Shown here one piece after another: positions 4,446-46,082 of a stretch of DNA of 64,000 nucleotides (position 1 is its first letter; every line of letters starts with the position of its first letter). The translations under genes were made by a program, and so were the position numbers. The notes under the pieces were generated by a model. The model ran no database searches. It was given only the letters and a program-made list of their open reading frames with translations, and was not told the origin of the DNA. Source of the stretch: Aphanothece saxicola GSE-SYN-MK-01-06B (lineage in GTDB: Bacteria > Cyanobacteriota > Cyanobacteriia > PCC-6307 > Cyanobiaceae); contig JAHHGT010000003.1 of assembly GCA_019359745.1 (NCBI GenBank), positions 1 through 64,000 on the forward strand, in the 5' to 3' direction.

Positions 4446-5321
4446 GTGGGCTTGAAGACGATGCCGACCTGCGGCCCTGGCCGGGGTTTCCTCTGGGGGC
4501 CTGGAACCGAGGAGCAGCGTCGGGCGCCCCGGGCCCACTTCCAGCAGCACCTCAAGGCGCCGCTGCCCGCGGCGACAGAGCTGGTGCTGGTCACCGATCT
4601 CGATGGAACCCTGCTGGAGGGGACCGTCCCGAACCGCCGTCGCCTCTACGGCTGGCTGGGTTCCCAGCGCCACCGGATCCTGCAGGTCTTCAGCACCGGC
4701 CGGGACCTGCGTTCCGTCGCCCGGCTGCTGGCCGCCGAGGCCTCCCTTGGCCTCCATCCCCCCCACCTGGTGATCGGTGATGTGGGTTGCACGGTGGCCT
4801 GTGGTGCCTCCCTCACCCCCTCGCCCCTGGCCCTGGAGCCAATCGAGGCCCTCTGGCGAGGGCGGGCGGCACGGGTGCTGCCCCTGCTGGCGGGCCTCCC
4901 GGGTCTCTCCGCCGAGCCCCTCAGCAGCGATCGGCGTCTGGCCTATGCCATCGACCCCCGCCGGCTCGATCGCAGCCGATTGCCGGCGATCGAGGCCCAT
5001 GGGGTCGATTGCCTTGTCTCGGGCGACAAGTACCTCGACGTGCTGCCGGCTGGTGTCAACAAGGGCAGCACCCTGCTGGGGTTGCTGGAGTGGCTGGAGC
5101 TGGATCCCGCCCTGGTGGTCACGGCGGGGGATTCCCTCAACGATCTGGCCATGTTCGAAACGGGGCTTCAGAGCGTGATGGTGGGCAATGCCGAGCCCGG
5201 CCTGGTGCGCGCCCTGCCGGGCCTGCCTCGCACCTACCGCGCCCGGGGCCATGGCGGCGCGGGCATCCTCGAGGGTCTGCGCCATTTCGGCTTCGGCCAT
5301 CTGTTGGCCGGTCTGGCCTGA
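4446..5321 (+). CDS. HAD-IIB (sucrose-phosphatase-like) phosphatase
   Basis: The protein of about 290 residues has HAD motif I (VLVTDLDGTLLEG, residues about 47-59), motif II region (VFSTGRDL), a conserved Lys region (GVNKGSTLLGLLEWL) and motif IV (VTAGDSLNDLAMFETG). The layout matches the sucrose-phosphate / mannosyl-3-phosphoglycerate phosphatase group, so dephosphorylation of a compatible-solute precursor is a reasonable inference. No partner glycosyltransferase is adjacent. The start may be 4446 or 4461; the first 35 residues are not part of the domain. Confidence 0.82.
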   Translation: MGLKTMPTCGPGRGFLWGPGTEEQRRAPRAHFQQHLKAPLPAATELVLVTDLDGTLLEGTVPNRRRLYGWLGSQRHRILQVFSTGRDLRSVARLLAAEASLGLHPPHLVIGDVGCTVACGASLTPSPLALEPIEALWRGRAARVLPLLAGLPGLSAEPLSSDRRLAYAIDPRRLDRSRLPAIEAHGVDCLVSGDKYLDVLPAGVNKGSTLLGLLEWLELDPALVVTAGDSLNDLAMFETGLQSVMVGNAEPGLVRALPGLPRTYRARGHGGAGILEGLRHFGFGHLLAGLA

Positions 5322-5364
5322 AGGACCTTGGCTGAGCAGGCCTCGTCCGGGCAGACCAGCTGGA

Positions 5365-7893
5365 TCAACGCTCCGGGGCCTGGCCGTCACGCCTCTCCCG
5401 CGCCAGGGCGGCCTTGGTGCGGGCGCTGGCGATGCCCTGGCGGGGATCCTCGGGCCAGGGGTGGCGGGGGTAACGGCCGCGCAGCTCCCGGCGCACCTCG
5501 GCGTAGCCCTGGCTCCAGAAGCCGGCCAGGTCGCTGGTGACCGCCGCCGGGCGTCCCGCGGGAGACAGCAGCTCCACCCGCACCGCCAGCCGGCCGTCCA
5601 GCACCGTCGGCCCTTCGAGACAGCCGAACATCTCCTGCACTTTCACCGCCAGTACCGGGGTGCCGCTGCTGTAGTCCAACGGCACCCGACGGCCGGAGGG
5701 GACCGGCTGGGTGAGGGGCAACAGCCGCTCCAGCTCCCGGCGCAGGGACCAGTCCAGATCGCCCCAGAGGATCTCGGCCAGGTCCAGTCGCTGCAGATCC
5801 TGAAGACTGCGCAGTCCGCCCAGGTGGGGGCCCAGCCAGGACTCTGGATCCTGCCGCAGCCGCTCCGGCGAACGGTCAGGCCAGGGCGCCCCCAGGTGAC
5901 GGTGGGCCAGCATCAGACGCTGCTGCAGCTGGCGGCTGCTGCGGCACCAGGGCAGCACGTCCAACCCCAGACTCTCCAGACCCTCGAGCAGCGCCCGCTC
6001 CACCACCTCCCCTGTGGCATCGGGCCAGGGGCGCCGCTCCAGCACCAGGGCCCCGGCGCGCCGCAGCCGCTCGCAGCGCACCCGTTGGTCGTTGCCATCC
6101 CAGCGGGCTTCGCTGCACTCCTCGATCCCATCGGCCAGCAGCTCTTCGAGTCCCTGACGGGACAGGGCCACCGCCAGCCGCACCCGGGCCTCCTGACCCT
6201 GGCCGTCGACACTGGCGATCGCCAGGGCTTCGGCGCCGGCGAGGGGGTCCCCCGGGGGCAGAACGGCGCCGCGACCGCAGCGCATCAGAAAGCGCCCATC
6301 CCCCCGGCCCCGGCCCATGGCCAACCGCTCCGGGTAGGCCCAGCCCAGCAGCTGGGCTGCCCGGGCGTCCTCGCAGCCGGAGAGGCTGGGCGCCGACACC
6401 CGTGGGGCCTGTCTGTCCTTGAGCTGGCGCAGCAGCTGGTCTTGGAGGTCTCGCCAGGGACGCCGGGCGCCCGTGCGACGCAGCCAATCCAGGCGCCGCA
6501 TCAGATCGCTGCCCGCCTCGCGGTGATCGAGGGGATCCCGTTCGCTCAGCAGCACGGCCACGGCACTGGCCTGGGATTCCCAGCCCCGTTCCCTGGCCCG
6601 CAGCAGCATGTGGGCCAGGCGTGGATGGACCCCCAGCCGGGCCATCGCCCGGCCGTGGCCGGTGATGCGCCCGTCACCGTCGATGGCCCCCAGCTGCCCC
6701 AGCAGGCTGCGGGCCTCAGCCAGGGAACGGCGGGGGGGCGCCGTGAGCCAGGGAAGGGTGTCGTCCGGCGCGCCGCCCCATTCCGCCAGTTGCAGGGCAA
6801 TCGGCAGAGGGTCGACTTCCAGCAGTTCCGGGGGGTCGAAGGCGGGGCGCCGCTGCTGCTCCGCCGGGGACCAGAGTCGCAGGCAGTGGCCGGGCCCGAG
6901 CCGGCCGGCCCGGCCCCGGCGCTGCTCGGCACTGGCCTGGCTGGCGGGCTGGGTGACCAGGCCGTCCATGCCCGTGGCCGGATCGAAGCGACTCAGGCGG
7001 CTCAGGCCGCTGTCGATCACCAGGGTCACCCCCGCAATCGTGAGCGAACTTTCTGCCACCGCCGTGGCCAGCACCACCTTGCCGGCCGCCTGGTGGGTGG
7101 CCGCGATGGCCCGCCCCTGGGCCGCCAGCGGCAGCTGGCCATGCAGCAGAACGCAGTCGACGTCGGCCCCCCAGGCGGTGGCTTCGATGGCCCGGCGCGT
7201 CGTCTCCAGCTCCCCCAGGCCCGGCAGGAACACCAGGACGGTGCCCCGGGGCTGGGGCTGGTCCAGCCAGTGGCCTTCGAGGGCCCGCAGCACCTGGCGC
7301 TCCAGCCGCTCCTCCTGCCGTGGCGGCTGATAGGCCACCGTCACCGGATGGCTGCGGCCCTCGCAGCTGATCACCCTGGCCCCATCCAGCTCGGCGGCCA
7401 AGGGTTCCAGATCGAGGGTGGCCGACATCACCAGCAGCCGCAGTTCCGGGCGCAGCAGGCTGCGGGCCTGACGCACGAGGGCGAGGGCCAGATCCGCCTC
7501 GGCCTGGCGCTCATGGAATTCATCGAAGATCACGTAGGCCACCCCTTCGAGGGCAGGATCGGCCTGAAGCCGGCGCAGGAACAGGCCGGCGGTGACCACC
7601 TCCAGTCGGGTGGCCGCCGAGGTGCGCGACTCCAGCCGCACGCTGTAGCCCACCCGGCCGCCGAGGGGTTCCCCGAGGTTGGCCGCCAGGCGTTCGGCGG
7701 CGGAGCGGGCCGCCAGCCGGCGCGGCTCCAGCATCAGGAGCCGGCCCTCCTGGCCGAAGGCTTCGAGCAGGGCGAGGGGGACGCGGGTGGTTTTACCGGC
7801 GCCGGGTTCGGCCTGGAGCAGCAGGGTGGACCCGGGCCCGAGGGCGGCGGTGATGGCCGCGAGGCGGCCATCAATGGGCAGGGACGACGTCAG
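5365..7893 (-). CDS. hrpB: ATP-dependent helicase HrpB (apparent CTG start)
   Basis: HrpB is a DEAH-box superfamily 2 helicase. The 842-codon reading frame contains Walker A (GAGKT, residues 31-35), the DEFH box, SAT (VMSATLD), the helicase C-domain (EQRRGRAGRLGPGHCLRLW) and the HrpB-specific C-terminal region. The first ATG (7734) lies downstream of Walker A and cannot be the start. Between the upstream in-frame stop and Walker A there is no ATG, GTG or TTG. The best candidate is CTG at 7891-7893, which overlaps the TGA of the preceding gene as CTGA and gives the normal N-terminus LTSSLPID. A sequencing error or ATT start (7 codons in) are alternatives. Confidence 0.9.
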   Translation of the reverse strand: MTSSLPIDGRLAAITAALGPGSTLLLQAEPGAGKTTRVPLALLEAFGQEGRLLMLEPRRLAARSAAERLAANLGEPLGGRVGYSVRLESRTSAATRLEVVTAGLFLRRLQADPALEGVAYVIFDEFHERQAEADLALALVRQARSLLRPELRLLVMSATLDLEPLAAELDGARVISCEGRSHPVTVAYQPPRQEERLERQVLRALEGHWLDQPQPRGTVLVFLPGLGELETTRRAIEATAWGADVDCVLLHGQLPLAAQGRAIAATHQAAGKVVLATAVAESSLTIAGVTLVIDSGLSRLSRFDPATGMDGLVTQPASQASAEQRRGRAGRLGPGHCLRLWSPAEQQRRPAFDPPELLEVDPLPIALQLAEWGGAPDDTLPWLTAPPRRSLAEARSLLGQLGAIDGDGRITGHGRAMARLGVHPRLAHMLLRARERGWESQASAVAVLLSERDPLDHREAGSDLMRRLDWLRRTGARRPWRDLQDQLLRQLKDRQAPRVSAPSLSGCEDARAAQLLGWAYPERLAMGRGRGDGRFLMRCGRGAVLPPGDPLAGAEALAIASVDGQGQEARVRLAVALSRQGLEELLADGIEECSEARWDGNDQRVRCERLRRAGALVLERRPWPDATGEVVERALLEGLESLGLDVLPWCRSSRQLQQRLMLAHRHLGAPWPDRSPERLRQDPESWLGPHLGGLRSLQDLQRLDLAEILWGDLDWSLRRELERLLPLTQPVPSGRRVPLDYSSGTPVLAVKVQEMFGCLEGPTVLDGRLAVRVELLSPAGRPAAVTSDLAGFWSQGYAEVRRELRGRYPRHPWPEDPRQGIASARTKAALARERRDGQAPER

Positions 7894-8276
7894 CGCACGT
7901 GGCGGAGGCCGTCCACCGGGTGGTAGGCCTCACCGGTGGTTTCCTCGTAGACGATCGCCGGCAGACCCGTTTCGAACATGGTCTGCAGGGCCTCCTTGAG
8001 ATAGGGGTTCCAGCCCCCTGTGGTGACCTTGCCGTGACGCACCGTCCAGTCCCAGGTGCCCTGGAGATCGCGGGGAATGCGGCCCTCCCGATCCCGCCGG
8101 GCCACCAGGTCCTGGGATTCGACGATGCCCACCAGGATCGGGTCCTTCCCGTAGGACGGCGTGATGCTCAGCTCTAGCCGGATGGGATCGTCCTTCACCA
8201 TCTTGAGGCGAAAACGAGGTGGCAACTTCAGTGCCCCGAGCACGGCCGCCACGATTCGCGTTCTCTGATCCACCAT
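7890..8276 (-). CDS. Conserved hypothetical protein, 128 aa
   Basis: This soluble protein has no membrane segment or signal peptide. It begins VDQRTRIVAAVLGALKLPPRF and has a mixed alpha/beta look with several charged motifs (KDDPIRLELSITPSYGKDP, RDLQGTWDWTVRHG). The ATG at 8276 has no competitor. It lies directly upstream of hrpB with a 4-base stop/start overlap. No function is recognised. Confidence 0.75.
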   Translation of the reverse strand: MVDQRTRIVAAVLGALKLPPRFRLKMVKDDPIRLELSITPSYGKDPILVGIVESQDLVARRDREGRIPRDLQGTWDWTVRHGKVTTGGWNPYLKEALQTMFETGLPAIVYEETTGEAYHPVDGLRHVR

Positions 8277-8337
8277 CGATCTCCGCCTTTGAGCGCGTTC
8301 ACCTCAGGGAGCCTATTCAGCGGCCGGCCTGGCGTGG

Positions 8338-8628
8338 TCAGTTCGGATCGGCGGGGAAGGCGGGCTGCTCGTTGTCGCCACTGAAGCGAACGGTCAGCAG
8401 GTCTTCCTGGGTGAGCTGGCCATCGGCGTCGAGGAGCTCCGGATGGATGGTGAGCCGACCGGTGCGATCACCAACTGGGCCGTCTTGGTTGTCAGCGGCC
8501 GCCTCCGCATCGCCTGGCCGCGGCACGGCGCCAAACCCCCGTCCCATGACCCGGAACGCCTGCCAGAGAAGCAGAACGAAGCAGGCTCCATAAAGGATCG
8601 GGAAGATCTGCGAGAGGAGGGAGGTCAT
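8338..8628 (-). CDS. DUF2973-like membrane-anchored protein
   Basis: The 96-residue product has one N-terminal transmembrane helix (SQIFPILYGACFVLLLWQAF) and a conserved tail TGRLTIHPELLDADGQLTQEDLLTVRFSG typical of cyanobacterial DUF2973 proteins. I prefer the ATG at 8628 (MTSLLSQ) over 8649. Function is unknown; the family is largely restricted to cyanobacteria. It lies downstream of a 34-residue membrane peptide gene. Confidence 0.82.
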   Translation of the reverse strand: MTSLLSQIFPILYGACFVLLLWQAFRVMGRGFGAVPRPGDAEAAADNQDGPVGDRTGRLTIHPELLDADGQLTQEDLLTVRFSGDNEQPAFPADPN

Positions 8629-8670
8629 GGCGCGATGGGAACCCCGCATGCCGCGGACTCTCCCCCATCA

Positions 8671-8775
8671 TCACCCGTCCGACGGTGCGGTGGAGGTGGC
8701 CAGCATCCAGGCCCAGAGGGAGGTACAGGCTGCTCCAAAGGCGAGAAAGGCGAGAAGCAGGCGACTTGTGTCCAT
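8671..8775 (-). CDS. Micro-ORF, 34-aa single-helix peptide
   Basis: ATG at 8775 to TGA at 8671 encodes a 34-residue peptide: a short MDTSR start, one hydrophobic stretch (LLLAFLAFGAACTSLWAWMLA) and a small polar tail. The size and shape resemble small thylakoid subunits, but I could not match it to PsbN, PetN, PsaM or PsbI. An AT-rich stretch (TTTGTAAACTTTTTTATC on the minus strand) just upstream could be its promoter. It may be cotranscribed with the DUF2973 gene. Confidence 0.5.
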   Translation of the reverse strand: MDTSRLLLAFLAFGAACTSLWAWMLATSTAPSDG

Positions 8776-32906: not shown

Positions 32907-35900
32907 ATGTCGTTTTCCGATAACTTCATCAAGCGGCCGGTTCTGACCACCGTCTGCAGCATTCTGATCGTGCTGGTGGGTCTGATCGCCATCCCCACGC
33001 TGTCGATCGAGAATCTTCCCAACATCGCCCCTCCCTTGATCCAGGTGACCTCCAACTACGGAGGCGCCAATTCCCTGGTGACCGAACAGGCGGTGACCAA
33101 CCCGATCGAACAGCAGATCAACGGGGTTCCCGGAGCCAACTACATCTCCTCGACCAGCAACATGTCTGGGACGAGCACGATTCAGGTGTTCTTCAATGAA
33201 GGCACTGATATCAACATCGACCAGGTGAACGTGCAGAACCGCGTGTCCCTGGCGATGCCCCAGTTGCCCCAGCAGGTGCAGGCCACCGGGGTTTCGGTGA
33301 TGCAGAGCACCCCTTCAATCCTGCTGGCTTATCAGGTCACGTCGACGGAAGGCCAATTTGATGCCTCCTATCTCAATGGTCTGATCTATCAGAACCTTTA
33401 TTTCCAGCTGGAACGGGTGCCTGGTGTGGCCACCGTCAACCTGCTCGGTGGCAGCAACCCCGCTTTCTGGTTGTTCGTCGATGCCAACAAGCTGACCGCC
33501 AACAACCTCACTGCCGACCAGGTCGTCAATGCGGTCAGCAGCCAGAACACCGTGGCGATCGGCGGGCTGGTGGGGGGAGCGCCGGCGGGCGGCAACCAGA
33601 AGTTTGCCTACCCGATCTTGGTGGAAAACAACGGCAACCTGGTATCGGTTGAGGAGCTCAACAATCTGATCGTCGGCCGCACACCCGCCGGCAACCTGCT
33701 GCGGCTCAAGGATGTCGGCGAAGCCACCTACGGCACCAACACCTACGCCCAGCAGGCCGTCAGCATCGAGGGCCACCCCTCGATCACGGTGGCCGTCTTT
33801 CAGACCCCCGAGAGCAACGCCCTCGATGTCTCGAACCAGGTGGTGGCGGTGATGAACCAGTTCACCCAGACCGTCCCCCCGGGGGTCAAGGTGTTCGAGA
33901 TCTACAACATCGGCCAGTTCATCGAATCGGCCGTGGAGGGGGTGATCGATGCCCTCGGCCTGGCCATCGTGCTGGTGCTGCTGATCCTGTTCCTGTTTCT
34001 GCAGGACTGGCGGGCCACGGTAGTGCCCAGCCTGGCGATTCCCATCTCCCTGATCGGCACCTTCGCCTTCGTGAAGATCTTCGGCTTCTCGATCAACCAG
34101 CTCACCCTGCTGGGCCTGGTGCTGGCCACGGGCCTGGTGGTGGATGACGCCATCGTGGTGATCGAGGCGGTGGAGAAGAACCTGGAGAAGGGGATGCGTC
34201 CCCGCCAGGCGGCCATGGAATGCATGGGGGAGCTGTTCGGCGCCTTGGTGGCCACCGCCCTGGTGTTGATGGCGGTGTTCGTGCCCGTCGCCTTTTACCC
34301 CGGCGGCATCGGCATCATCTACAAACAGTTCGCCCTCACCATCGCCTTCTCGATCGCGATCTCCGCCTTCAACGCGCTCACCTTCTCTCCCATGCTCTCG
34401 GCCCTGCTGCTGAGGAGCCAGAAGTCAGCGCCGCCGGGCAGGCTGGTGGGCATCATCGGTGGCGTGGTGGTAGGCCTGGCCTTCGGTCGGTTCAGTGCCG
34501 CCTCCTTCGGCAACCTCACGTACGTGCTCGGCGTGGTCGTCGGTGTGCTGGCCGGCGCCAATCTGGTGTGGATCTTCAACCGCTTCAACGCCTTCTTCAC
34601 CCGCCTGGAGCGCGGCTATGCCGCGATGGTGGCGGCCCTGATTGCCCGGCGTCGCTGGATCCTGGTGGGTCTGGGCGGCGGCATCGCCCTCACCCTGTTC
34701 GCCTTCTCCGCCCTGCCCTCCGCCTTCATCCCGGAGGAGGACCAGGGCTATGGCATGGGCATCTTCCAGCTCCAGAACGGCGCTTCCCTCAGTCAGACTC
34801 AGGGCACTGCCCTGGAGGTGGCCAAGGTGCTCAATGCCGAGCCCGACATCATCGCCGGCTCGGTGGTGAGCGGGTATGGCTTCAACGGCGCCAGTCCCGA
34901 TCAGGGGGTGTTCTTCTTCGGCTTCAAACCGCTGGAGGAGCGCAGCGGCGCCGACCAGAAGGCGCCGGCGATCATCAACCGGCTCAACGCCAAGCTCAGC
35001 CAGATCAGTTCCGGCATGGCGGTCGCCGCCCAGCCGCCGGCCATCCCTGGGTTCTCGGCCCAGGGCGGCTTCTACTTCCAGTTCAACGACCTCAGCAACG
35101 GCGCCTTCACCTTCAACCAGCTCAATGATCAGGCCAAGCAACTGATCCAGGCGGGAACGGCCAGCGGCGGCTTCTCCACCCTCTACACCCAGTTCATTCC
35201 CAGCGCCCCGGCCTTCGGGCTGAAGATCGACCGTTCGATCCTCGGGGCCCTCAACGTCGATTTCCAGCAGGCGATGCAGACCATCGCCGTGCTCGCGGGC
35301 AGCAACTATTCCGGCCTCACCTATGAGAGTGGCCAGGTCCGGAACATCTACGTGCAGGCGGCGGCGGGCAACCGCAGTTCCCTGGACGATGTGCTCAGTT
35401 ATTACGTCCGCAGCAAGGACGACAAGCTGGTGCAGGTGTCGGAGTTTGCCACGGCCGAACTCACCAGCGCGCCGCCGGTGATCAGCCACTTCAACCTTTA
35501 TCGCACCATCCTGATCCAGGGGGCCGAGGCGGTTGGCAAGAGTTCCGGTCAGGCCCTGACCAAGATCCAGGACCTCTTCCAGGCCCAGGAGTTCAACAAC
35601 ATCGGCTATGCCTTCACCGGCCTCGCTGCTCTGCAGCTGTCGGCGGGCAATGCCAGCGTGCTGGTGTTCGGCCTGGGGATCCTTGTGGTCTATCTGGTGC
35701 TCTCGGCCCAGTACGAGAGCTATGTGACGCCGGTGATCATCCTGATGACCGTGCCCCTGGCCATGCTCGGAGCCCTGGCGTTCCTGGCCCTGCGCTCGAT
35801 CGATCTCAACATCTACGCCCAGGTTGGACTGGTGACCCTGATCGGCCTGGCGGCCAAGAACGGCATCCTGATCGTCGAGGTGGCCGAGCAGCACATGAAG

Positions 35901-36206
35901 GAGGGCATGACGGCCGCCGAGGCTGCCATTGCCTCGGCTGAATCACGGCTGCGGCCGATTTTGATGACGGCCATCGCCGCCCTGGCCGGTTTCCTTCCCC
36001 TGGTGGTGGCCACCACGGCGGGGGCCAACAGCCAGCAGTCCCTGGGGACCGTGATCTTCGGCGGCCTGCTGGTGGCCACGGTGCTCTCGCTGGGGGTGGT
36101 GCCTCCCTTCTATGTGGTGGTGAAGGCCCTGGAGGCCCGCTGGTTCGGCGCGTCCGAAACCGAGCCGGTGGATCTGGCCGTCGCCCGGGACAACCCCCCC
36201 GGCTAG
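32907..36206 (+). CDS. RND (HAE1/AcrB-type) efflux permease, second copy
   Basis: The 1099-residue pump has the same architecture as the first: [29 protein letters not shown], acidic pair in TM4 ([16 protein letters not shown]), [14 protein letters not shown] in TM10. It too has an insert after TM6, at residues about 503-556, with about two hydrophobic Gly/Val-rich segments. The two pumps are clearly diverged paralogues, so the duplication is old. No terminator is evident between the pairs, and all five genes could form one operon. Confidence 0.93.
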   Translation: MSFSDNFIKRPVLTTVCSILIVLVGLIAIPTLSIENLPNIAPPLIQVTSNYGGANSLVTEQAVTNPIEQQINGVPGANYISSTSNMSGTSTIQVFFNEGTDINIDQVNVQNRVSLAMPQLPQQVQATGVSVMQSTPSILLAYQVTSTEGQFDASYLNGLIYQNLYFQLERVPGVATVNLLGGSNPAFWLFVDANKLTANNLTADQVVNAVSSQNTVAIGGLVGGAPAGGNQKFAYPILVENNGNLVSVEELNNLIVGRTPAGNLLRLKDVGEATYGTNTYAQQAVSIEGHPSITVAVFQTPESNALDVSNQVVAVMNQFTQTVPPGVKVFEIYNIGQFIESAVEGVIDALGLAIVLVLLILFLFLQDWRATVVPSLAIPISLIGTFAFVKIFGFSINQLTLLGLVLATGLVVDDAIVVIEAVEKNLEKGMRPRQAAMECMGELFGALVATALVLMAVFVPVAFYPGGIGIIYKQFALTIAFSIAISAFNALTFSPMLSALLLRSQKSAPPGRLVGIIGGVVVGLAFGRFSAASFGNLTYVLGVVVGVLAGANLVWIFNRFNAFFTRLERGYAAMVAALIARRRWILVGLGGGIALTLFAFSALPSAFIPEEDQGYGMGIFQLQNGASLSQTQGTALEVAKVLNAEPDIIAGSVVSGYGFNGASPDQGVFFFGFKPLEERSGADQKAPAIINRLNAKLSQISSGMAVAAQPPAIPGFSAQGGFYFQFNDLSNGAFTFNQLNDQAKQLIQAGTASGGFSTLYTQFIPSAPAFGLKIDRSILGALNVDFQQAMQTIAVLAGSNYSGLTYESGQVRNIYVQAAAGNRSSLDDVLSYYVRSKDDKLVQVSEFATAELTSAPPVISHFNLYRTILIQGAEAVGKSSGQALTKIQDLFQAQEFNNIGYAFTGLAALQLSAGNASVLVFGLGILVVYLVLSAQYESYVTPVIILMTVPLAMLGALAFLALRSIDLNIYAQVGLVTLIGLAAKNGILIVEVAEQHMKEGMTAAEAAIASAESRLRPILMTAIAALAGFLPLVVATTAGANSQQSLGTVIFGGLLVATVLSLGVVPPFYVVVKALEARWFGASETEPVDLAVARDNPPG

Positions 36207-36317
36207 GAGCGACCCTGGCGGCGGCCATGTAACGAATCATGCGCCGGCCTGGCTGGGCCATTGCGGTCGCTGGGCCAGGCCGTGAGGATCTTGAAAAGGG
36301 GTTGCGGAGAGATCGCC

Positions 36318-36752
36318 ATGCTGCCGACGCTTGCCGAACGGTTGCGGGAGCAGCAGGCCAGGACCAGGGGCCGGCCCCCATCGCGCCAGCCCTGGCCCCT
36401 GCCCACCGAACCGCCCACCGCCCTGCTGTTCCGGCCGCTGCCGCAGGCGGCAGATCCGGTCTGCGTCGCCCCTGTGGAGCCTGTTGTGCCCACGTCGCCC
36501 CAGACCCGGACGGCCCAGGCCGAGGCGCTGCTGCTGTGCGTCTGGGCCGTGTTGGTGGTGATCGATGGGGCGCTGGCGCTGGCCTCCCTGATCGATGGCC
36601 TCGTCTCCCGTGAGCGCAGAAACCTCGGGGCGCTCCGCCAGAAGAGGGTCACCCTGGCGGCGTCATCCTCCCCAGCGGTTTCTGAAACCTCCCGAGGGCC
36701 CGGAAGCCACAGAGTGGCTGCAGAGATGCCGCTGGTCGCCCCCTCCATGTGA
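36318..36752 (+). CDS. Hypothetical protein with one membrane helix
   Basis: From ATG 36318 the product is 144 residues: a Pro-rich N-terminal 60 residues, a hydrophobic helix (LLLCVWAVLVVIDGALALASLIDGL) and a basic tail. An equally long frame on the opposite strand has no domain or composition in its favour. The gene is unrecognised and its reality is uncertain. Confidence 0.4.
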   Translation: MLPTLAERLREQQARTRGRPPSRQPWPLPTEPPTALLFRPLPQAADPVCVAPVEPVVPTSPQTRTAQAEALLLCVWAVLVVIDGALALASLIDGLVSRERRNLGALRQKRVTLAASSSPAVSETSRGPGSHRVAAEMPLVAPSM

Positions 36753-36876
36753 AGCAAGTCTGTAACGTCTTGATGTAACGGTGGCGAGGCAAATTCCTCC
36801 CGCTTGTCGGCTGATTGTCTTCCCTGGCCTGGCGCGCACCTCTGGTAGTTTCGTTGTGCAGGGTGCGGTAGAGATC

Positions 36877-37746
36877 GTGAGTCGAACAGCAGCGGCAACA
36901 CAGGGGTTTCTGGCAGCCCTTGTTCTCTCCTTCGCCGGCTTCTGCCTCAATTCTGCGGCCTTCGCCCAGGCGGCCCCGCCTGTGCGCAGCGTCAAGGTCG
37001 TCCAAGGGGACACGCTTGAGGCCCTGGCCGCCCGCTACGGCGTGAGCGTGCAGGACTTGATGCGGCTGAACACGATCAGCCGGCCCGACGAGCTGCAGAT
37101 CGGCCAGACGCTGAAGCTGCCCGCGTCGAAGGGCCTGGTGCAGGTGCGCACCGGCGACACGCTGGCTGTCCTGGCGGCCCGGCACCGCACCACGGTGGCG
37201 GAGCTCCAGAAGGCCAACCCTGGCGTGAAGCCGGCTCAGCTGAAGGTCGGCGCCTGGCTGAAGCTGCCTGCGCCGCCCCCTTTGGCCAAGGCCAAACCGA
37301 CGGCCACGGCTACGACCACCGCCAAGCCTGCACCCAAGCCCTCGGCCCCGGCCAAGCCTCCGGCCCCGGCCAGTCCGCCTGCGGTGAAGGCTCCGGCGCC
37401 CTCCGCCCCACCCTCGCCCGTGCCGCCGCAACCGGGGGGGGAGGCGGTGCGCTGGCGCTTCTATGGCAACACCCTTGTGGACTGGGGCGGCTGGAAGCTC
37501 CACCCCGGTGGTGTGCGGGTCAGTCTGGTGCAGCCCACCCAGGCGGAGGTCGGCCCGATCCGGGCGCGGGCAACGGCCGTGGCAGTGCATTGCAGCAGCC
37601 TCCGCCAGGCCTGGCTGATCAACGGGGCCTGGGAACCCTGGGTGGTCCCCGAGGGCCGTTCGGTGGCACAGCAGATCGTCCTGGATCTCTGCGCCAACGT
37701 CAGCGATCCCACCGCCCCGGCCGTTCCGCCCCCTTCCGCTCCGTGA
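36877..37746 (+). CDS. Secreted protein with two LysM domains
   Basis: LysM modules bind peptidoglycan. A signal peptide (ending NSAAFA, cleavage before QAAPP) is followed by two LysM repeats: VVQGDTLEALAARYGVSVQDLMRLN...LQIGQTLKLP and VRTGDTLAVLAARHRTTVAELQKANP...LKVGAWLKLP. A Pro/Ala/Lys-rich spacer of about 55 residues then leads to a C-terminal domain of about 100 residues (WRFYGNTLVDWGGWKLHPGGVRVSLV) without a recognised catalytic motif. Start GTG 36877 gives the best signal peptide. Confidence 0.85.
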   Translation: MSRTAAATQGFLAALVLSFAGFCLNSAAFAQAAPPVRSVKVVQGDTLEALAARYGVSVQDLMRLNTISRPDELQIGQTLKLPASKGLVQVRTGDTLAVLAARHRTTVAELQKANPGVKPAQLKVGAWLKLPAPPPLAKAKPTATATTTAKPAPKPSAPAKPPAPASPPAVKAPAPSAPPSPVPPQPGGEAVRWRFYGNTLVDWGGWKLHPGGVRVSLVQPTQAEVGPIRARATAVAVHCSSLRQAWLINGAWEPWVVPEGRSVAQQIVLDLCANVSDPTAPAVPPPSAP

Positions 37747-37774
37747 GGGCCTGACCACCGACGGCGCCAAACAG

Positions 37775-37790
37775 AGTGATCAAAATCACT
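37775..37790. promoter_or_regulatory. CRP-family type palindrome upstream of the Anbu gene
   Basis: AGTGAT-CAAA-ATCACT is a perfect 6-4-6 inverted repeat. It can be read as GTGA-N6-TCAC, the CRP half-site arrangement, or as TGAT-N4-ATCA, the FNR arrangement. It is centred about 70 bases before the Anbu start codon, with an AT-rich TAGCATTAAAA downstream as a possible -10 region. Confidence 0.5.
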
Positions 37791-37851
37791 TCCCGGCACG
37801 TTGTTTGAGGCAATGAGCTAGCATTAAAACCCTTATCTGCAGCCTTCCAGA

Positions 37852-38613
37852 GTGACGTATTGCATCGGTTACTGGCTGGAGAAGGGCCTGGTGATGGTCT
37901 CTGATTCCCGCACAAATGCTGGCGTTGATTACATCTCCAGCTACAGCAAGATGTACGTCTTTCAGCCATCGTCGGATCGGCTGTTCGTTCTCCTGGCGGC
38001 GGGAAATCTTGCCACCACCCAGGCCGTGATCAGCTGGATCCGTCGGGATCTCGACCGGCCGACTGAGGCCTTCGCCCCCGGCGACAGGGATCTACGCTCC
38101 TGTGATTATCTTTTTGAAGCGGCCGCCTATGTCGGCCGGGTGAGTGTGGCGGTGCAGCAGGAGAATGCCGCTGCTCTGCAGCAGGCGGGGGCCAGTGCGG
38201 GGGCCTCCTTCATTCTGGGTGGTCAGATCGCCGGGGAGGCCCACGGTCTGTATCTGATCTATCCCCAGGGAAACGCCATCATGGCCACCCGCGAAACGCC
38301 CTACCTGCAGATCGGTGAGACGAAGTACGGCAAACCCCCCCTCGATAACGTGGGCCACACCAACCTCTCCCTGGAGGATGCCGCCCGGCTCTGTCTGATT
38401 TCGGAGGTGCTGACCCAGCGCTCCAATCTCACCGTTGGACCTCCGTTCGAGCTGGCCATCCTTCCCGCGGATGCCATGGCGGTGTCCCACCAGTTGACCT
38501 TGGCGGCGGAGGCTCCTGAGCTGGCCGCCATGGTCGAGACCTGGAGCGACGCCCAACGGGAAGCCCTGCATCGCCTGCCCAGCTTCCCCTGGGAGCAGGC
38601 GTCGCCAACCTGA
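37852..38613 (+). CDS. Anbu-type proteasome-related peptidase (BPH)
   Basis: Anbu proteins are Ntn-hydrolases related to 20S proteasome subunits and HslV that assemble into open rings; their physiological role is debated. The 253-residue product starts (GTG) MTYCIGYWLEKGLVMVSDSRTNAGVDYISSYSKM. Removal of Met exposes the Thr nucleophile; the SDSR Asp and SKM Lys needed for catalysis are present. The usual Anbu neighbours (alpha-E/DUF403, ATP-grasp, transglutaminase) are absent. Glutaminase follows 15 bases downstream. Confidence 0.9.
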   Translation: MTYCIGYWLEKGLVMVSDSRTNAGVDYISSYSKMYVFQPSSDRLFVLLAAGNLATTQAVISWIRRDLDRPTEAFAPGDRDLRSCDYLFEAAAYVGRVSVAVQQENAAALQQAGASAGASFILGGQIAGEAHGLYLIYPQGNAIMATRETPYLQIGETKYGKPPLDNVGHTNLSLEDAARLCLISEVLTQRSNLTVGPPFELAILPADAMAVSHQLTLAAEAPELAAMVETWSDAQREALHRLPSFPWEQASPT

Positions 38614-38628
38614 GCCCGTTTTCCCGCC

Positions 38629-39615
38629 ATGTGGTCCGTTTCTGAATGGGTGTCCAACGGCCACCTGCCCACGGCCGAAGTGGTGCAGGAGCTGGTGGCG
38701 GAGGCCCATGGCCGCTTCGCGCCCGTTCTGGATGGCGAGGTGGCCGATTACATCCCCGCCCTGGCGGCGGCCGCTCCCGAGCATTTCGGTCTCTGTGTGT
38801 CGAGTTGCGGCGGGGCGTTGTTCGAGGCGGGCGAAGCCCGGGAGTCGTTCAGCATCCAGAGCATCTCAAAGCCGTTCCTGTTCGCGTTGATCTGCCAGGC
38901 CATCGGTGAGCAGGAGGCCCGCGAAAAGCTCGGCGTCAACAGCACCGGCCTGCCGTTCAATTCCGTCCTGGCGGTGGAGCGCAGCGGCGAGGGCCTTTCC
39001 AATCCGATGGTGAACGCCGGGGCGATCGCCGCCACCAGCCTGGCGCCAGGAGCCAGCAGTGAGGAGAAGTGGGCCTTCATCCAGGACGGCTTCTCCCGTT
39101 TCGCCGGCCGGCGGCTGGAGATCGATGGGAGGGTCTTCGATTCGGAGCTGGCCAGCAATCGCCGCAACGCCGGTCTGGCCACCCTGCTGAGCGACCATGA
39201 CCGCATCTGGTGGGATCCCGACGAGGCCACCGAGCTCTACACCCGCCAGTGTTCCCTCAGTGTCACGGCTGCTGATCTGGCCGTGATGGCCGCCACCCTG
39301 GCCAATGGGGGGCGCCAGCCGGTCACCGGAGAGCAGGTGATCGAGGCCATCCACTGCCAGCATGTGCTGGCGGTGATGGTGACCGCGGGGCTGTATGAAA
39401 CCTCCGGCGACTGGCTGTATGCCACCGGCCTGCCTGGGAAGAGTGGTGTGGCCGGGGGCATGATCACGGTGGCCCCGGGCAAAGGGGGCCTGGCGACATA
39501 TTCGCCCCCCCTGGATGAGGCGGGCAACAGTGTGCGCGGCCAGCTCACGGCACGTTTCCTCTCCGAGCAGCTGGGTCTGAACCTGTTTGCCTCCCGGCCC
39601 GCGGCCAGCAGCTGA
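38629..39615 (+). CDS. glsA: Glutaminase
   Basis: GlsA hydrolyses glutamine to glutamate and ammonia. The 328-residue protein is a serine-dependent beta-lactamase-like enzyme with Ser78-x-x-Lys81 (SISKPF), the Asn/Tyr-bearing segments NPMVNAGAIA and LYETSGDWLYATGLPGKSGVAGGM, all in family order. It starts 15 bases after the Anbu gene and is probably cotranscribed. A GltS glutamate symporter gene lies further downstream on the same strand. Confidence 0.95.
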   Translation: MWSVSEWVSNGHLPTAEVVQELVAEAHGRFAPVLDGEVADYIPALAAAAPEHFGLCVSSCGGALFEAGEARESFSIQSISKPFLFALICQAIGEQEAREKLGVNSTGLPFNSVLAVERSGEGLSNPMVNAGAIAATSLAPGASSEEKWAFIQDGFSRFAGRRLEIDGRVFDSELASNRRNAGLATLLSDHDRIWWDPDEATELYTRQCSLSVTAADLAVMAATLANGGRQPVTGEQVIEAIHCQHVLAVMVTAGLYETSGDWLYATGLPGKSGVAGGMITVAPGKGGLATYSPPLDEAGNSVRGQLTARFLSEQLGLNLFASRPAASS

Positions 39616-39689
39616 AGCATGGCCGCTGCAAGGGAGATGACGGCCACGCCTGTCTACGATCCAGCCTCAGCAGGGGGCGTTGTGCCGCA

Positions 39690-40694
39690 ATGATCAGCAC
39701 CACCAATCTCGTGCGCTACTTACTGCTGGTGGCCTGCATCGGCGTCACGGTGGTGATCTTCAATTACTTTTCAGGCACGATTGCGGTGTTCACGGCCGCC
39801 GCCATCGTGGCGGCACTGCTCAACGTCCCGGTGAAGTGGCTGAGCCGTTATCTGCCGCGGGGATGGGCAATTGTTGCCGTTTCCTGCGGTGCCCTGATCC
39901 TCCTGGTTGGTTTCGTGACGGGCATTGGCCTGCAGGTGCTGAACCAGGGTCAGGGTCTGCTGCTGGATCTGCAGGGCACCTTGAAGCAGCAGGACCTCAC
40001 ACCCCTGCATCACTACCTCAAAACCTATGGGTTCGACAGATTCACGACCCTGCTGCAGGAGGGTCTGCTGACGGGTCTGGGGTTGTTGCAAACCGTGTTT
40101 TCCGGGCTCTTCACCGGAATTTTCGGTGCAGTGATCAGTCTGTACATGCTGATTGATGGCGAAAAGCTCTGGAACGGCTTCCTGGGGCTGATTCCGGAGC
40201 CTCACCGTGATCGTTTTGCCGTGATCTTTCTGCAGAGTGTTCTGGGATTCATCCGTGGCCAGCTGCTGCTGATGGTGTTTCTGACCGTCTCAACGGCCGT
40301 GATTTTCCCGCTGCTGGGTGTGAAGTACAGCCTGATTCTGGCCGTCATTGTGGGGGTCCTTGATGTGATCCCCGGGATCGGTGCCACCCTCGGCATCGTG
40401 TTGATCTCGTTGATGGTCTTCGCCTCCCAGGGTGGAGACATTGGCTTGCGGGCCTTGATCGCGTCCGTGCTGCTCGGTCAGATTCAGGACAACATCGTCC
40501 GGCCCAAGGTGATGGGCCAGGCGATGGAGCTCAATCCGGTGATTCTCTTTTTGGCCCTGTTCATCGGACAGCGGGTGGCTGGCCTGTTGGGGGTGTTCCT
40601 TTCGATCCCCATTGCCGGCATGATTGCGATCTGGGTGCATTCCGAACGCCAGCAGCAGGAAGCCATCATTCTCACCCCGGCGGTTGAGGATTAG
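39690..40694 (+). CDS. AI-2E family (PerM/TqsA-type) transporter
   Basis: This 334-residue integral membrane protein has the family layout: a pair of N-terminal helices, a third (GWAIVAVSCGALILLVGFVTG), an amphipathic soluble stretch, then four to five C-terminal helices with GVLDVIPGIGATLG and QIQDNIVRPKVMG. Members export diverse solutes, such as AI-2 or sodium, so the substrate cannot be told here. Separated from glsA by 74 bases. Confidence 0.9.
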   Translation: MISTTNLVRYLLLVACIGVTVVIFNYFSGTIAVFTAAAIVAALLNVPVKWLSRYLPRGWAIVAVSCGALILLVGFVTGIGLQVLNQGQGLLLDLQGTLKQQDLTPLHHYLKTYGFDRFTTLLQEGLLTGLGLLQTVFSGLFTGIFGAVISLYMLIDGEKLWNGFLGLIPEPHRDRFAVIFLQSVLGFIRGQLLLMVFLTVSTAVIFPLLGVKYSLILAVIVGVLDVIPGIGATLGIVLISLMVFASQGGDIGLRALIASVLLGQIQDNIVRPKVMGQAMELNPVILFLALFIGQRVAGLLGVFLSIPIAGMIAIWVHSERQQQEAIILTPAVED

Positions 40695-40778
40695 GGCCGT
40701 GATCACGGCCAAGCCCCCGTCTCGCAGGCGTTCGGCGTCATCGCCCCAAGGGCGGCGGGGGTCTTGCAGCCGGCTGTC

Positions 40779-41279
40779 ATGCTGCTCCTTACTCATCTCC
40801 TCACTAAGCCCTTGCCTCTGAATCGCGCGATCGTTGCCACCCTCACGGCCCTTGCCGCTACGGCGGCCACCGGGGTTCCGGCGGCGCAGGCCACTTGCCG
40901 CTTTCTGATGCCGCTGGGGGGCGGCGGCACCCCGGTGGTGTCCAAGCGGATCGGGCCGGACCGGCTCGTGGGCCGCACCAACTGGAACACCGACTTCATC
41001 GTGGACCGCAACTTCCGCAGTTATCGCTTCTTCTTCACATCGGCCTCCACCGAGCGGGCCAGCTTCCCGGTGTCCGGCTTCATGGTGTTCACCGATGGCA
41101 GCAACCTGCAGGTGATCAACGAAACACCGACCTTTGAGCCAGGCACGGGCCGGATGTTCGGACCTTTCCAGGCCGTTCCCGGCAAGCGCACCAGGCTGAT
41201 GAATTTTCGGGTGGGCTCGTCCACCACACCGGCTGCCATTGGATTCAGCTATCGCATCTCTGTCCAGGGCTGTGATTAA
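40779..41279 (+). CDS. Small secreted protein, unknown function
   Basis: A signal peptide (NRAIVATLTALAATAATGVPAAQA) precedes a mature part of about 130 residues with two cysteines near its ends and a beta-rich, Phe-rich pattern (NWNTDFIVDRNFRSYRFFFTSAST...YPVSGF-like). It probably forms a small disulfide-linked beta domain. The start is ATG 40779 or a TTG just before the signal peptide. The gltS ATG lies five bases after its stop region, so cotranscription is likely. Confidence 0.65.
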   Translation: MLLLTHLLTKPLPLNRAIVATLTALAATAATGVPAAQATCRFLMPLGGGGTPVVSKRIGPDRLVGRTNWNTDFIVDRNFRSYRFFFTSASTERASFPVSGFMVFTDGSNLQVINETPTFEPGTGRMFGPFQAVPGKRTRLMNFRVGSSTTPAAIGFSYRISVQGCD

Positions 41280-41284
41280 AACCC

Positions 41285-42484
41285 ATGCAGTTTGAAAGCT
41301 TCGCGACCTTCAACATCGCCATCGTGGTGCTGGCGATCGGCCGCTGGCTGAATCGAAAAGTGGGCTTCCTGCGGGAGTTCAATGTTCCAGAACCGGTCAC
41401 CAGCGGGCTGCTCGTCTGCCTGCTGTTGGCCTTGATCCATGCCATCAATGGCACGGAGATCGGCTTCAATCTGCAGACGCGGGATTTTCTGCTGCTCTAT
41501 TTCTTTGCGGCCATCGGCCTCAATGCCGACATCAAGACCCTGCTCTCGGGCGGATGGCCCCTGCTGATCCTGGTGGGCACCACCGTGGGTTACATGATCC
41601 TGCAGAACCTCACCGGGATCGGCATGGCCGCGCTCCTGGGACTGAATCCTCTGGTGGGTCTGCTGGGGGGGTCGGTGTCCCTGCTGGGGGGGCACGGCAC
41701 GGCGATCGCCTGGGCTCCTCGCTTCGCCGAGAGCCACGGCATCAGCAATGCCCTCGAGATCGGCATCGCCTGCGCCACCTTCGGTCTGGTGCTGGCCTCG
41801 CTGATGGGCGGGCCGATCGCCCGGATCCTGATCCGCCGCCACCGGCTCCAGACGCCGCAGGCCGCGGCAATGGCCGAGCCCGAGGGCGGCACCCCGGACA
41901 GGGAGCCGGAAGCGGTGACCTACTTCAGCCTGCTGGGCACCCTGTTCTGGCTCAACGTCAGCCTGGGCCTCGGTGAGGTGCTGCATGAGGCGCTGAAGGC
42001 CGCCGGCAGCAACCTGCCCCTGTTCGTCTGCTGCCTGTTCGCGGCGATCTTCCTCACCAACACCGTGCCGCGGCTGCTGCCGATCCGCTGCCTGGCCGCC
42101 CCCCGGTCCCTGGCCATCGTCTCGGACATCGCCCTGGGCATCTTCCTGACGATGTCCCTGATGAGCCTGCAGCTCTGGACCATCGCCTCCCTGGCGGGTC
42201 CCATCCTGGCCATCCTCGCCGCCCAGTTTGTGGTGTCCTTCCTGTTCGCCCTGTTCGTGGTGTTCAGGGTGATGGGACGCGATTACGAGGCGGCCGTGAT
42301 CTGCGCCGGCTTCGGGGGCATCTCCCTGGGAGCCACGCCCACGGCGATGGCCAACATGTCGGCGGTGGCCCAGGCCTACGGTCCGGCCCGCCAGGCTTTC
42401 ATCATCGTGCCGCTGGTGTCGGGCTTTTTCGTGGACATCAGCAACGCCGTGGTGATCCAGCGCTTCCTGAACTGGTTCGGTTGA
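41285..42484 (+). CDS. gltS: Sodium/glutamate symporter
   Basis: GltS imports glutamate with sodium. The 399-residue protein has ten or so hydrophobic segments in two inverted repeats and family blocks LREFNVPEPVTSGLLVCLLLALI, GLNPLVGLLGGSVSLLGGHGTAIAWAPRFAE and GFGGISLGATPTAMANMSAVAQAYGPA. These Gly-rich re-entrant loops are diagnostic. It follows a secreted protein gene closely, and lies 1.7 kb downstream of glutaminase on the same strand. Confidence 0.95.
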   Translation: MQFESFATFNIAIVVLAIGRWLNRKVGFLREFNVPEPVTSGLLVCLLLALIHAINGTEIGFNLQTRDFLLLYFFAAIGLNADIKTLLSGGWPLLILVGTTVGYMILQNLTGIGMAALLGLNPLVGLLGGSVSLLGGHGTAIAWAPRFAESHGISNALEIGIACATFGLVLASLMGGPIARILIRRHRLQTPQAAAMAEPEGGTPDREPEAVTYFSLLGTLFWLNVSLGLGEVLHEALKAAGSNLPLFVCCLFAAIFLTNTVPRLLPIRCLAAPRSLAIVSDIALGIFLTMSLMSLQLWTIASLAGPILAILAAQFVVSFLFALFVVFRVMGRDYEAAVICAGFGGISLGATPTAMANMSAVAQAYGPARQAFIIVPLVSGFFVDISNAVVIQRFLNWFG

Positions 42485-42531
42485 GCCGGCGGGGGCTTGG
42501 TGGATCCAGCGGCGATTCAGAGGAGAGGGGC

Positions 42532-43881
42532 TCAGAAGCGCAGGGTCGTTCGGATCAGTCCACCCCACACCCCCAGGCTGGCCTCCCCTGACGCCGTGGG
42601 GAACAGCAGGGCCTGGGACAGGTCGGCGCTGCCGCTGAGGGCGCCCCGCGGCCGGCTCAGCCAGAAGAGTGCCGGCGTCACCGAGAGCTCATCGCTGATC
42701 TGGATCCGGTAGAAGACCTCGAAAGCCAGCCCCCGGTCGTCGAGACTGCTCTGGCTGGGCGTCTGGATCGCGACCACGTGGGCGGGGGCGCCGACGGCCA
42801 GCCCCAGGCTGTTGCCTACCCCCAGGACGTCGCTCCAGACCAGGCCGGTGTACCAGGAGCGACTGCGCACCCCCGAGAGGCCGGCCACCGCCGGGGTGCT
42901 GAAACGGAAGGAGTCCTGGCCCCAGCCGGCGCTGATCGAGGGGAGCCAGCCGGAGCGGCGGGGCTGCCAGTAGCCCGCCAGCGACCAGGATCCCAGGCTG
43001 CCGTCGCGGCCACTGGCTGCCAGCTGGCTGGTCAGGGGGGTGCCCCGGAGCCTCACCGGGGGGCCGCTCAGGCTGTAGGCCCCGGTGATGTTCCACTGGG
43101 GCCGGCTCAGGGCCAGCTGCAGGGTGCTGGTCTGGGAGGAGGAGCCGGAGAACAGGCCGCCCCCCTGCGCGCTGCCCCCGGCCTGGCCGGCCACGTAGGC
43201 GTAGCCCAGGCTCAGCCCCTGCAGATCGCCGCGGGGCTGCCACCAGAGTCCGAAGCCTCCCCCCAGCCGTTTGCTGTAGGTGCCGGGCGAGCCGGCGAAC
43301 TGGAACAGATCCAGGATCGGCGACGCGTTGTAGGCACTCGGCCAGACGGGGAGCATGTCGAGCTGCATGATCCGGGGCCCGGCGCTGAGCCGGATCTCGG
43401 GGCTGAGCGGCAGCTGCAGGTAGGCCCGGTTGATGCTCACCAGCCGGCCGGAGCACGCCTGCTCCCCCGCGCCGCAGGCCGGCTCCTGGAAGGCGACGTC
43501 CAGGCGGCTCAGGGGGGTGGGCGCGTTGGAGAAGAAGCCGGAGGGCGCGAAGTCGCCACTACGCAGGCGGAGGCGGAACAGGTCCTGGCCCGTGAAGCTG
43601 GTGTCGATCGTCAGGCGCAGCTCGTGGTTGAGGCTGACGCCGTTCAGCAGCGGCGCCCCCACCGCGGTGTTGCTGGCACGGTCGACCGAATTGCCGTCGT
43701 ACCGGAGGGACCCCAGGACACCGTTGATCTGCAGGTTGACGCTGGTGGTGGGCGCGAACCGGGTGGCCTCCAGTGCCTCGACGGCGGCCTCCGGTGGCAG
43801 CTCCTGGGCCCGCAGGGGCCCGGCGGCACCGCAGACCCAGGCCGCCATCAGCCAGGCAAGGGTGGCGCCGGGGGGCCTCAT
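42532..43881 (-). CDS. OprB-like carbohydrate-selective porin lacking an SLH domain
   Basis: The 449-residue outer-membrane protein has a signal peptide (cleavage after PLRA), a sequence rich in alternating beta strands, and the C-terminal aromatic residue (TTLRF) required for barrel assembly. Segments such as SPILDLFQFAGSPGTYSKRLGGGFGLWWQPRG resemble the OprB region of cyanobacterial SomA/SomB-type porins. Those usually carry an SLH domain and a coiled coil at the N-terminus; here both are missing. It probably is a general or sugar porin. Confidence 0.8.
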   Translation of the reverse strand: MRPPGATLAWLMAAWVCGAAGPLRAQELPPEAAVEALEATRFAPTTSVNLQINGVLGSLRYDGNSVDRASNTAVGAPLLNGVSLNHELRLTIDTSFTGQDLFRLRLRSGDFAPSGFFSNAPTPLSRLDVAFQEPACGAGEQACSGRLVSINRAYLQLPLSPEIRLSAGPRIMQLDMLPVWPSAYNASPILDLFQFAGSPGTYSKRLGGGFGLWWQPRGDLQGLSLGYAYVAGQAGGSAQGGGLFSGSSSQTSTLQLALSRPQWNITGAYSLSGPPVRLRGTPLTSQLAASGRDGSLGSWSLAGYWQPRRSGWLPSISAGWGQDSFRFSTPAVAGLSGVRSRSWYTGLVWSDVLGVGNSLGLAVGAPAHVVAIQTPSQSSLDDRGLAFEVFYRIQISDELSVTPALFWLSRPRGALSGSADLSQALLFPTASGEASLGVWGGLIRTTLRF

Positions 43882-43894
43882 GGAGCCTGGCCGC

Positions 43895-45628
<1,734 letters not shown>

Positions 45629-45656
45629 CTAGCGTGGGGAGCATTGCTTTCACCCC

Positions 45657-46082
45657 ATGGCGCCACGGTCGCTCCCCACCGCCCTGAGCACGGCTGCGGC
45701 CCTCGGTGCCACCGCTGCCACCGCTGCCATCGCTGCGGCCGGAGCGGTCGTGCTGAGCCTGTCCTCGGCGCGGGCGGGGGTGATGGGCGCCGCGAAGGCC
45801 CTTCCCTATGCCGAAGCGGTCGACCGCACCCACACCGCTGCCCAGGCCGTGCTGGCTGGAGCCGGGGCCGAAACCTGCCTGCGGGGCAAGCTCACCAATG
45901 CCCTGCTGGGGCTCTCGAGCAGCTGTGAGGCCACCGGTGATCGCAACCCCCTCTGCCAGCTGGCCGACAAGGCCGCCGTCGTGACGCCGATGAGCCTGGC
46001 CTTCATGCGCGATACCGCGACCCAGTTGCTGGCGTTGATCGAGGCCCCGGCGGCCGGAAGCCCCCAGGGCGCCAAGCCCTGA
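45657..46082 (+). CDS. Small secreted protein, unknown function
   Basis: The 141-residue product has a long Ala-rich signal peptide (about 40 residues, ending SSARA), then a helical domain with three cysteines (ETCLRGKLTNALLGLSSSCEATGDRNPLCQLADKAA). The disulfide pattern and size suggest a small periplasmic helix bundle. It is divergent from pgm and 24 bases before the next gene. Confidence 0.65.
   Translation: MAPRSLPTALSTAAALGATAATAAIAAAGAVVLSLSSARAGVMGAAKALPYAEAVDRTHTAAQAVLAGAGAETCLRGKLTNALLGLSSSCEATGDRNPLCQLADKAAVVTPMSLAFMRDTATQLLALIEAPAAGSPQGAKP

Follow-up and report, generated by a model that had tools for sequence, protein, structure and literature searches.

What is a proteasome-like protease doing directly ahead of a glutaminase? 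The question is raised by a 64,000-nucleotide (nt) stretch of the genome of Aphanothece saxicola GSE-SYN-MK-01-06B (contig JAHHGT010000003.1, positions 1 to 64,000; hereafter the window), in which a gene for Anbu (anbuA, product Anbu-A) is followed by a gene for glutaminase A (glsA). Anbu is a widespread proteasome homologue whose structures have been solved, and the parts of PMC5666114 and PMC6376114 that were consulted report neither a substrate nor a partner. The original prediction, made from the letters of the window, had placed Anbu, a glutaminase 15 bases after it and the glutamate symporter GltS 'two genes later', had seen a CRP-type palindrome upstream, and had proposed a nitrogen-salvage unit. 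The three genes and the palindrome are where it put them, if 'two genes later' is taken to mean two genes in between. The two genes in question are:

37852..38613, + strand: anbuA, GTG start; Anbu proteasome-type Ntn-hydrolase of 253 amino acids with the N-terminus MTYC
38629..39615, + strand: glsA; glutaminase A of 328 amino acids, YbaS-like (PF04960, PRK12356)

The pairing of anbuA and glsA is real and conserved, and not an accident of a single genome. We read it as a new operon arrangement for a protease family that is already known, the term operon being used on the grounds of gene arrangement. Our overall reading, which we consider quite possible without going as far as probable, is that anbuA and glsA form a two-gene operon on one of three diverged Anbu copies, extended by GltS in this lineage, and that Anbu-A would act ahead of GlsA in the recovery of glutamate. 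A two-gene operon that includes an enzyme of known chemistry would provide a concrete metabolic readout for Anbu; the pairing is thus a testable hint to the role of an old proteasome-like enzyme, and the question can be approached in cultured strains.

The survey on which this is based covered 42 Anbu-A loci in 41 genomes (strain GreenBA-s has two), taken from the window, from genomes of the same genus and from the records of named relatives, with a single copy kept of any contig present in both sources. A pair was counted when a same-strand glsA with more than 54% identity lay within 450 nt of anbuA. By this test, glsA stands directly downstream of anbuA, on the same strand, in 33 of the 42 loci (two of the pairs, L022 and L073, are cut by contig ends, and in L153 anbuA itself is broken), and the conservation in relatives on which the original prediction had staked its case is borne out. 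The gap between the two genes, 15 bases in the window, ranges from -4 (an overlap) to +62 nt wherever the start shared with the window protein can be read.

The intact pair is found in at least seven different neighbourhoods, as judged from the gene strings produced by our own gene caller, in which most neighbouring gene clusters were not identified. The pair is flanked by efflux genes, with or without a LysM gene; by efflux-type genes in reversed orientation (L059, L102); by a downstream radical-SAM gene, to which L108 and L111 add upstream genes for a transglutaminase and a formylglutamate hydrolase (the L109 locus being cut); by a RimK-like ATP-grasp gene upstream (L114, L115); by an aminotransferase gene upstream (L121); by GltS and another gene upstream (L124); by hrcA (L131); or by other flanks (L110; L113 and L155). 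This variety of settings speaks against the idea, improbable in our opinion, that descent and tight packing alone hold together two genes of unrelated function.

Presence and absence of the genes point in the same direction. Among 42 genomes of the genus, 24 contain both genes, three anbuA only (G005, G018, G032), two glsA only (G012, G039) and 13 neither, an association with a Fisher p of 1.9e-6 that is uncorrected for kinship. Presence was called by identity (at least 71-72%), some of the genomes are 73-85% complete, and G033, where glsA is cut by a contig end, was counted as having both. The genes are adjacent in 22 of the 24 genomes with both; the exceptions are G001, with about 6 kb between them, and G036, which has them on separate contigs. 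Neither gene was present in seven genomes from other genera of the family, nor in five more such genomes from a sample of the phylum. The sample comprised 156 genomes, of which 29 have an Anbu (E up to 1e-20) and 49 a glutaminase (E up to 1e-30); 17 genomes besides that of the window carry both, and in none of the 17 are they adjacent, judged by the positions of the matches. A cyanobacteria-wide pairing of Anbu with glutaminase was not seen: by the same criterion, no adjacent case occurred in 30 genomes of other families or in the phylum sample outside the genome of the window (155 genomes; the two samples overlap). All adjacent cases lie within one picocyanobacterial group, as descent alone would have it; several loci keep Anbu-A without glsA, and the tree of Anbu broadly resembles that of GlsA, which also favours that explanation. 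Among the papers returned by searches of the PMC literature, which leaves out most subscription journals, none shows a link between Anbu and glutaminase in its title or the opening part of its abstract.

The genome of the window (3.25 Mb, 11 contigs) contains three Anbu copies, A, B and C, and the genus carries up to three, each with different partners. Copy B starts -1 to 80 nt after hrcA (PF01628) in 28 named loci; this linkage recurs across the genus and was seen outside it in one locus only (L052, from another cyanobacterial family). In the genome of the window itself (L037, C6:45000-62000), the start of copy B shares one base with the stop codon of hrcA (6900-8695 of that locus). Copy C (C11:149503-150237) is preceded by two transglutaminase-like genes (PF01841) and an N-formylglutamate amidohydrolase gene (PF05013), with which it forms a single run (L038, C11:142000-158000, at 5142-8232); in L108, similar transglutaminase and formylglutamate-hydrolase genes are found some 2-4 kb ahead of anbuA and glsA.

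In a tree of 96 Anbu proteins, the 40 hrcA-linked rows and the 39 A rows are split by a branch (89/99), while copy C stands apart with other cyanobacterial Anbu proteins; the tree came with a warning about long branches. An origin of Anbu-A from the hrcA-linked copy is plausible, but was not retained: the tree gives no order of duplication, because the outgroup joins at an unsettled point among the A rows, and outside the genus the hrcA linkage was seen in that one locus only. Copy B resembles Anbu-A closely (about 60-68% identity, same catalytic residues), but follows hrcA and has glsA at its side in exceptional cases only. In Synechococcus sp. Tobar12-5m-g, an intact glsA begins 3 nt after the hrcA-linked Anbu gene, while the A copy of the same strain lacks one, and pieces of glsA are kept behind the hrcA-linked Anbu in L126 and L127. 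This second association of glsA, with a diverged Anbu, argues for a functional link, and is a further point against descent and packing alone. Since the glsA of Tobar12-5m-g branches with the glsA rows of A loci (93/76), one of these loci may be its origin.

The canonical Anbu operon comprises ATP-grasp, alpha-E, transglutaminase and Anbu genes. The protein of the window is a clear Anbu of the Anbu-1 kind; it shares the catalytic residues and has a Thr directly after the Met, but at its locus a glutaminase and often a glutamate symporter stand in place of the three usual partners. Their absence, which had been pointed out in the original prediction, applies to the locus and not to the genome: alpha-E, ATP-grasp and transglutaminase genes sit on contig C1 at about 100.2-103.5 kb, away from anbuA, so that their loss from the genome is ruled out. 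It is therefore conceivable, if unlikely, that Anbu-A acts on a specific tag or peptide containing glutamine or glutamate, made by the ATP-grasp, alpha-E and transglutaminase proteins encoded elsewhere, GlsA clearing the glutamine or ammonia released. In addition to the C1 operon, the partners of copy C, the RimK-like ATP-grasp gene just ahead of the pair in L114 and L115, and the suggestion that the Anbu operon is concerned with amide-bond chemistry (Iyer 2009, cited in PMC6376114 and PMC5666114) are in line with this idea. On the other hand, the C1 operon and anbuA are physically unlinked in the genome of the window, RimK is close to the pair in one context only, and a role in peptide synthesis has been termed less likely (PMC5666114). 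In L114 the RimK-like gene (4943-5935) ends 65 nt ahead of anbuA on the same strand, and L115 has a gene of the same cluster.

Both proteins of the pair retain intact active-site motifs. Pfam and NCBIfam searches gave no match for the anbuA product, which aligns over nearly its full length (residues 2-248) with five Anbu sequences in the Protein Data Bank (PDB), among which 5loy (E 2.6e-65), 5nyj (2.1e-53) and 5lox (6.2e-46). Removal of the Met from the MTYC start would expose Thr1. Thr1, Asp17 and Lys32(33) are kept in 39/39 A-type, 40/40 hrcA-linked and 17/17 other rows, rows shorter than 200 amino acids (broken or cut genes, e.g. L029, L152, L153) having been dropped before counting. The S1 pocket of Anbu-A, T20-Y30-A48-L52-T55 in all 39 A-type rows, differs by three changes from that of Anbu-1, T20-F30-T48-L52-S55 (PMC5666114), whose active site binds proteasome inhibitors (PMC5666114).

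For glsA, the match to PF04960 (E 8e-102) is accompanied by one to NCBIfam PRK12356 above its cut-off, and eight motif residues are invariant in all 35 full-length rows (one broken frame and a second glutaminase were excluded). That second glutaminase (L159, contig C6, about 204.9-206.7 kb; 47% identity to GlsA) is fused to a cyclic-nucleotide (cNMP)-binding domain, with a below-cut-off STAS match between both parts. The closest solved relative of GlsA is YbaS of Escherichia coli, a member of the same family that acts in acid resistance; the glutaminase of the window differs in that its host is a cyanobacterium and its gene follows that of Anbu, not far from a gene for a glutamate importer. 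This likeness, and the position of the paralogous Anbu-B directly after the gene for HrcA, a heat-shock repressor, would suit a role in stress, in which GlsA and GltS would raise internal glutamate (osmotic stress) or ammonia (acid stress, as thought for YbaS) while Anbu would clear damaged protein. We regard such a role as rather improbable: no recurring acid- or osmotic-stress gene was seen beside the pair, though most neighbouring clusters were not identified.

Downstream of the pair, the genes up to GltS, together with the upstream neighbour, are as follows:

36781..37746, + strand: LysM-domain protein (PF01476), upstream neighbour outside the unit; many A-type loci lack it upstream
39690..40694, + strand: AI-2E-type membrane protein (PF01594), optional member of the unit
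40764..41279, + strand: small protein, putatively secreted, outside the known families, which precedes GltS in the lineage of the window and recurs in relatives
41285..42484, + strand: gltS, sodium/glutamate symporter, TIGR00210 above cut-off

The TIGR00210 score of GltS is 453.6 bits, against a cut-off of 310.75. Of the 42 loci, 27 have a GltS gene no more than 6.5 kb from anbuA (those with little flanking sequence being scored as misses), on the same strand in 19, including L106 and L124 where it is upstream, and on the opposite strand in eight, with about 46-55% identity to the GltS of the window. In L063 the GltS match overlaps glsA by a few bases, and in L121 about 70 nt separate it from the glsA ahead of it. 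However, the linkage partly reflects one old neighbourhood shared by descent (efflux genes, the pair, GltS, porin, phosphoglucomutase). For this reason the 27 loci are not 27 independent events, and GltS linkage is weaker evidence than the anbuA-glsA pair. The AI-2E-type gene does not stand between glsA and GltS in L100, L104, L105 and L061. Searches of Pfam and NCBIfam at E 0.001 found nothing for the small protein; weaker matches to it (about 47-57%) are found near the pair in L110 and L115.

Upstream of anbuA, two elements were located:

37776..37789, strand not applicable: dyad GTGATCAAAATCAC, mostly GTGATCnnGATCAC in close relatives
37819..37824, + strand: probable -10 element TAGCAT (TAN3T, usually inside GAGCTAN3T), the TAN3T being common to all 14 close loci

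The palindrome, described as perfect in the original prediction, is an exact GTGA-N6-TCAC with arms GTGAT/ATCAC, but its central CAAA is asymmetric. The closest relatives by Anbu are strains of Cyanobium, Synechococcus and the like. GTGAN6TCAC occurs 76-78 nt ahead of the start codon in 10 of the 14 closest loci (L006-L019) and is lost or absent in L012, L013, L015 and L018, while TAN3T lies 32-34 nt ahead of the start codon in 14/14. None of the other 28 A-type loci has GTGAN6TCAC within 200 nt upstream (in L109 and L120, only 160 and 45 nt were scanned), so the expected conservation of the palindrome holds in the nearest relatives only. In L108 and L111, which belong to another lineage, weak GTG-N8-CAC dyads (GTGAGCTGGAGCAC, GTGAGCAGGAACAC) about 98-99 nt before anbuA may be due to chance.

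When the ten rows with the dyad were aligned with gaps, the 12 arm columns were 94% identical, but eight of these are fixed by the selection of the rows; the four free arm columns reached 81%, while the two-base spacer had 29%, the upstream flank 45% and the downstream flank 60%. With all 14 rows included, the figures are 64% for the arms, 30% for the spacer, 38% upstream and 54% downstream, and among 99 equally shaped windows that of the dyad comes 9th. An ungapped footprint (arms 97% and 91%, spacer 29%, flanks 39-57%) was discarded as inflated, its rows being selected by pattern and aligned without gaps. The statistics are moderate; the dyad, with its free spacer, looks like a site at which a dimeric DNA-binding protein would act in this sublineage.

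It should be noted that the bare pattern is common, with 81 GTGAN6TCAC in 3.25 Mb, and that in a spacing control on 125 kb of the same genome, a spacing of six was not in excess over other spacings. CTAG is rare in bacteria. Because the reversed form of a stricter pattern holds CTAG, and because the spacing control is flat, the ratios of 81 to 9 (GTGAN6TCAC to its reverse) and 31 to 0 (stricter form) were dropped as proof of a site. Among the 31 sites in the genome within one mismatch of GTGATCNNGATCAC, 29 are inside genes called by our own gene caller, leaving the site of the window and one other between genes, and a global regulon was therefore rejected.

The original prediction had connected this site with CRP-family control. 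The RE-type recognition helix marks a CRP that reads GTGA-type sites. The genome has 13 matches to the cNMP-binding domain, and among these proteins only NtcA also matches a Crp-type helix-turn-helix. Searches with PF13545 and PF00325 returned NtcA and the same five relatives above cut-off, PF13545 adding a GntR-like match below it. As all six carry TRVT-type helices, as in NtcA, and none an RE-type one, a canonical CRP was not found among them; loss of crp has been reported in 17 of 29 cyanobacterial genomes (PMC2633013). The likeness is there: AGTGATCAAAATCACT resembles putative SyCRP1 sites of Synechocystis, e.g. TGTGATCCAGATCACA and AGTGAAAAAACTCACT (PMC2633013), the dyad stands upstream of a TAN3T box as they do, and it recurs in close relatives. 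The distance is different, the box being 28-29 nt from the dyad and not about 22 bp downstream, as at CRP sites (PMC2633013). With the near-identical sites mostly inside genes, classical cAMP-CRP control of the unit through the palindrome is very unlikely, and this part of the original prediction is doubtful. Control of the anbuA promoter by NtcA through GTAN8TAC, found near -41.5 in NtcA-activated promoters (PMC3898017), was rejected, the consensus being absent from positions 33001 to 46000 of the window. Since 29 of the 31 near-identical sites are inside genes and a canonical CRP was not found, the dyad looks like a local, lineage-specific predicted site for some factor, possibly an NtcA-like protein. 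Two near-identical CRP-family-like genes far apart in the genome (L187, C11:74.5k; L188, C3:293k) have a TTRVTTTR helix and no cNMP-domain match.

As to function, the most likely role of the unit, as far as can be told from its gene content, would be the recovery of glutamate and ammonium from protein. The Anbu-A ring would cut proteins or peptides, and the glutamine released would pass to GlsA, to be converted to glutamate and ammonium, while GltS would import external glutamate into the same pool; anbuA and glsA would be co-transcribed, and nitrogen or carbon supply may control the unit. This recovery is favoured because nitrogen limitation raises Anbu in Pseudomonas putida (cited in PMC5666114), because the Anbu group COG3484 is named in an analysis of the sigma-54 regulon (PMC12316311), and because of the glutaminase and GltS themselves. 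Anbu expression was unchanged under several other conditions (PMC5666114). The nitrogen salvage put forward in the original prediction fits both the genes and the P. putida response.

Several facts weigh against glutamate recovery by Anbu-A and GlsA under a dedicated regulator. Tested Anbu proteins were inactive on standard proteasome substrates (PMC6376114, PMC5666114), and the S1 pocket, that of Anbu-1 with small changes, indicates no preference for glutamine or glutamate. Nine of the 42 A-type loci have no intact neighbouring glsA (L106, L107, L116, L117, L119, L120, which keeps a remnant, L122, L123 and L152), so Anbu-A can persist without it. Common ancestry accounts for part of the adjacency within the genus, 32 of the 42 loci lack the dyad, and no GTAN8TAC occurs between positions 33001 and 46000 of the window. 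A more far-reaching version, which is speculative and in our judgement unlikely, would have the Anbu rings specialised by their partners: copy A as the proteolytic front end of an Anbu-GlsA-GltS recovery line, placed in one sublineage under a regulator reading GTGATCnnGATCAC; copy B devoted to heat stress, with hrcA; and copy C part of a transglutaminase/N-formylglutamate hydrolase unit.

Units in decay were also met. In L119/L068 (G001, a metagenome assembly), anbuA has a stop at codon 12 and glsA has a stop as well, and in L153 (Synechococcus sp. RedBA-s) anbuA is broken and glsA intact. Finally, a locus from another cyanobacterial family (L191, 5979-7928) contains a partial glsA with 73% identity to GlsA, set in an unusual chimeric frame; a transglutaminase gene follows about 50 nt later.

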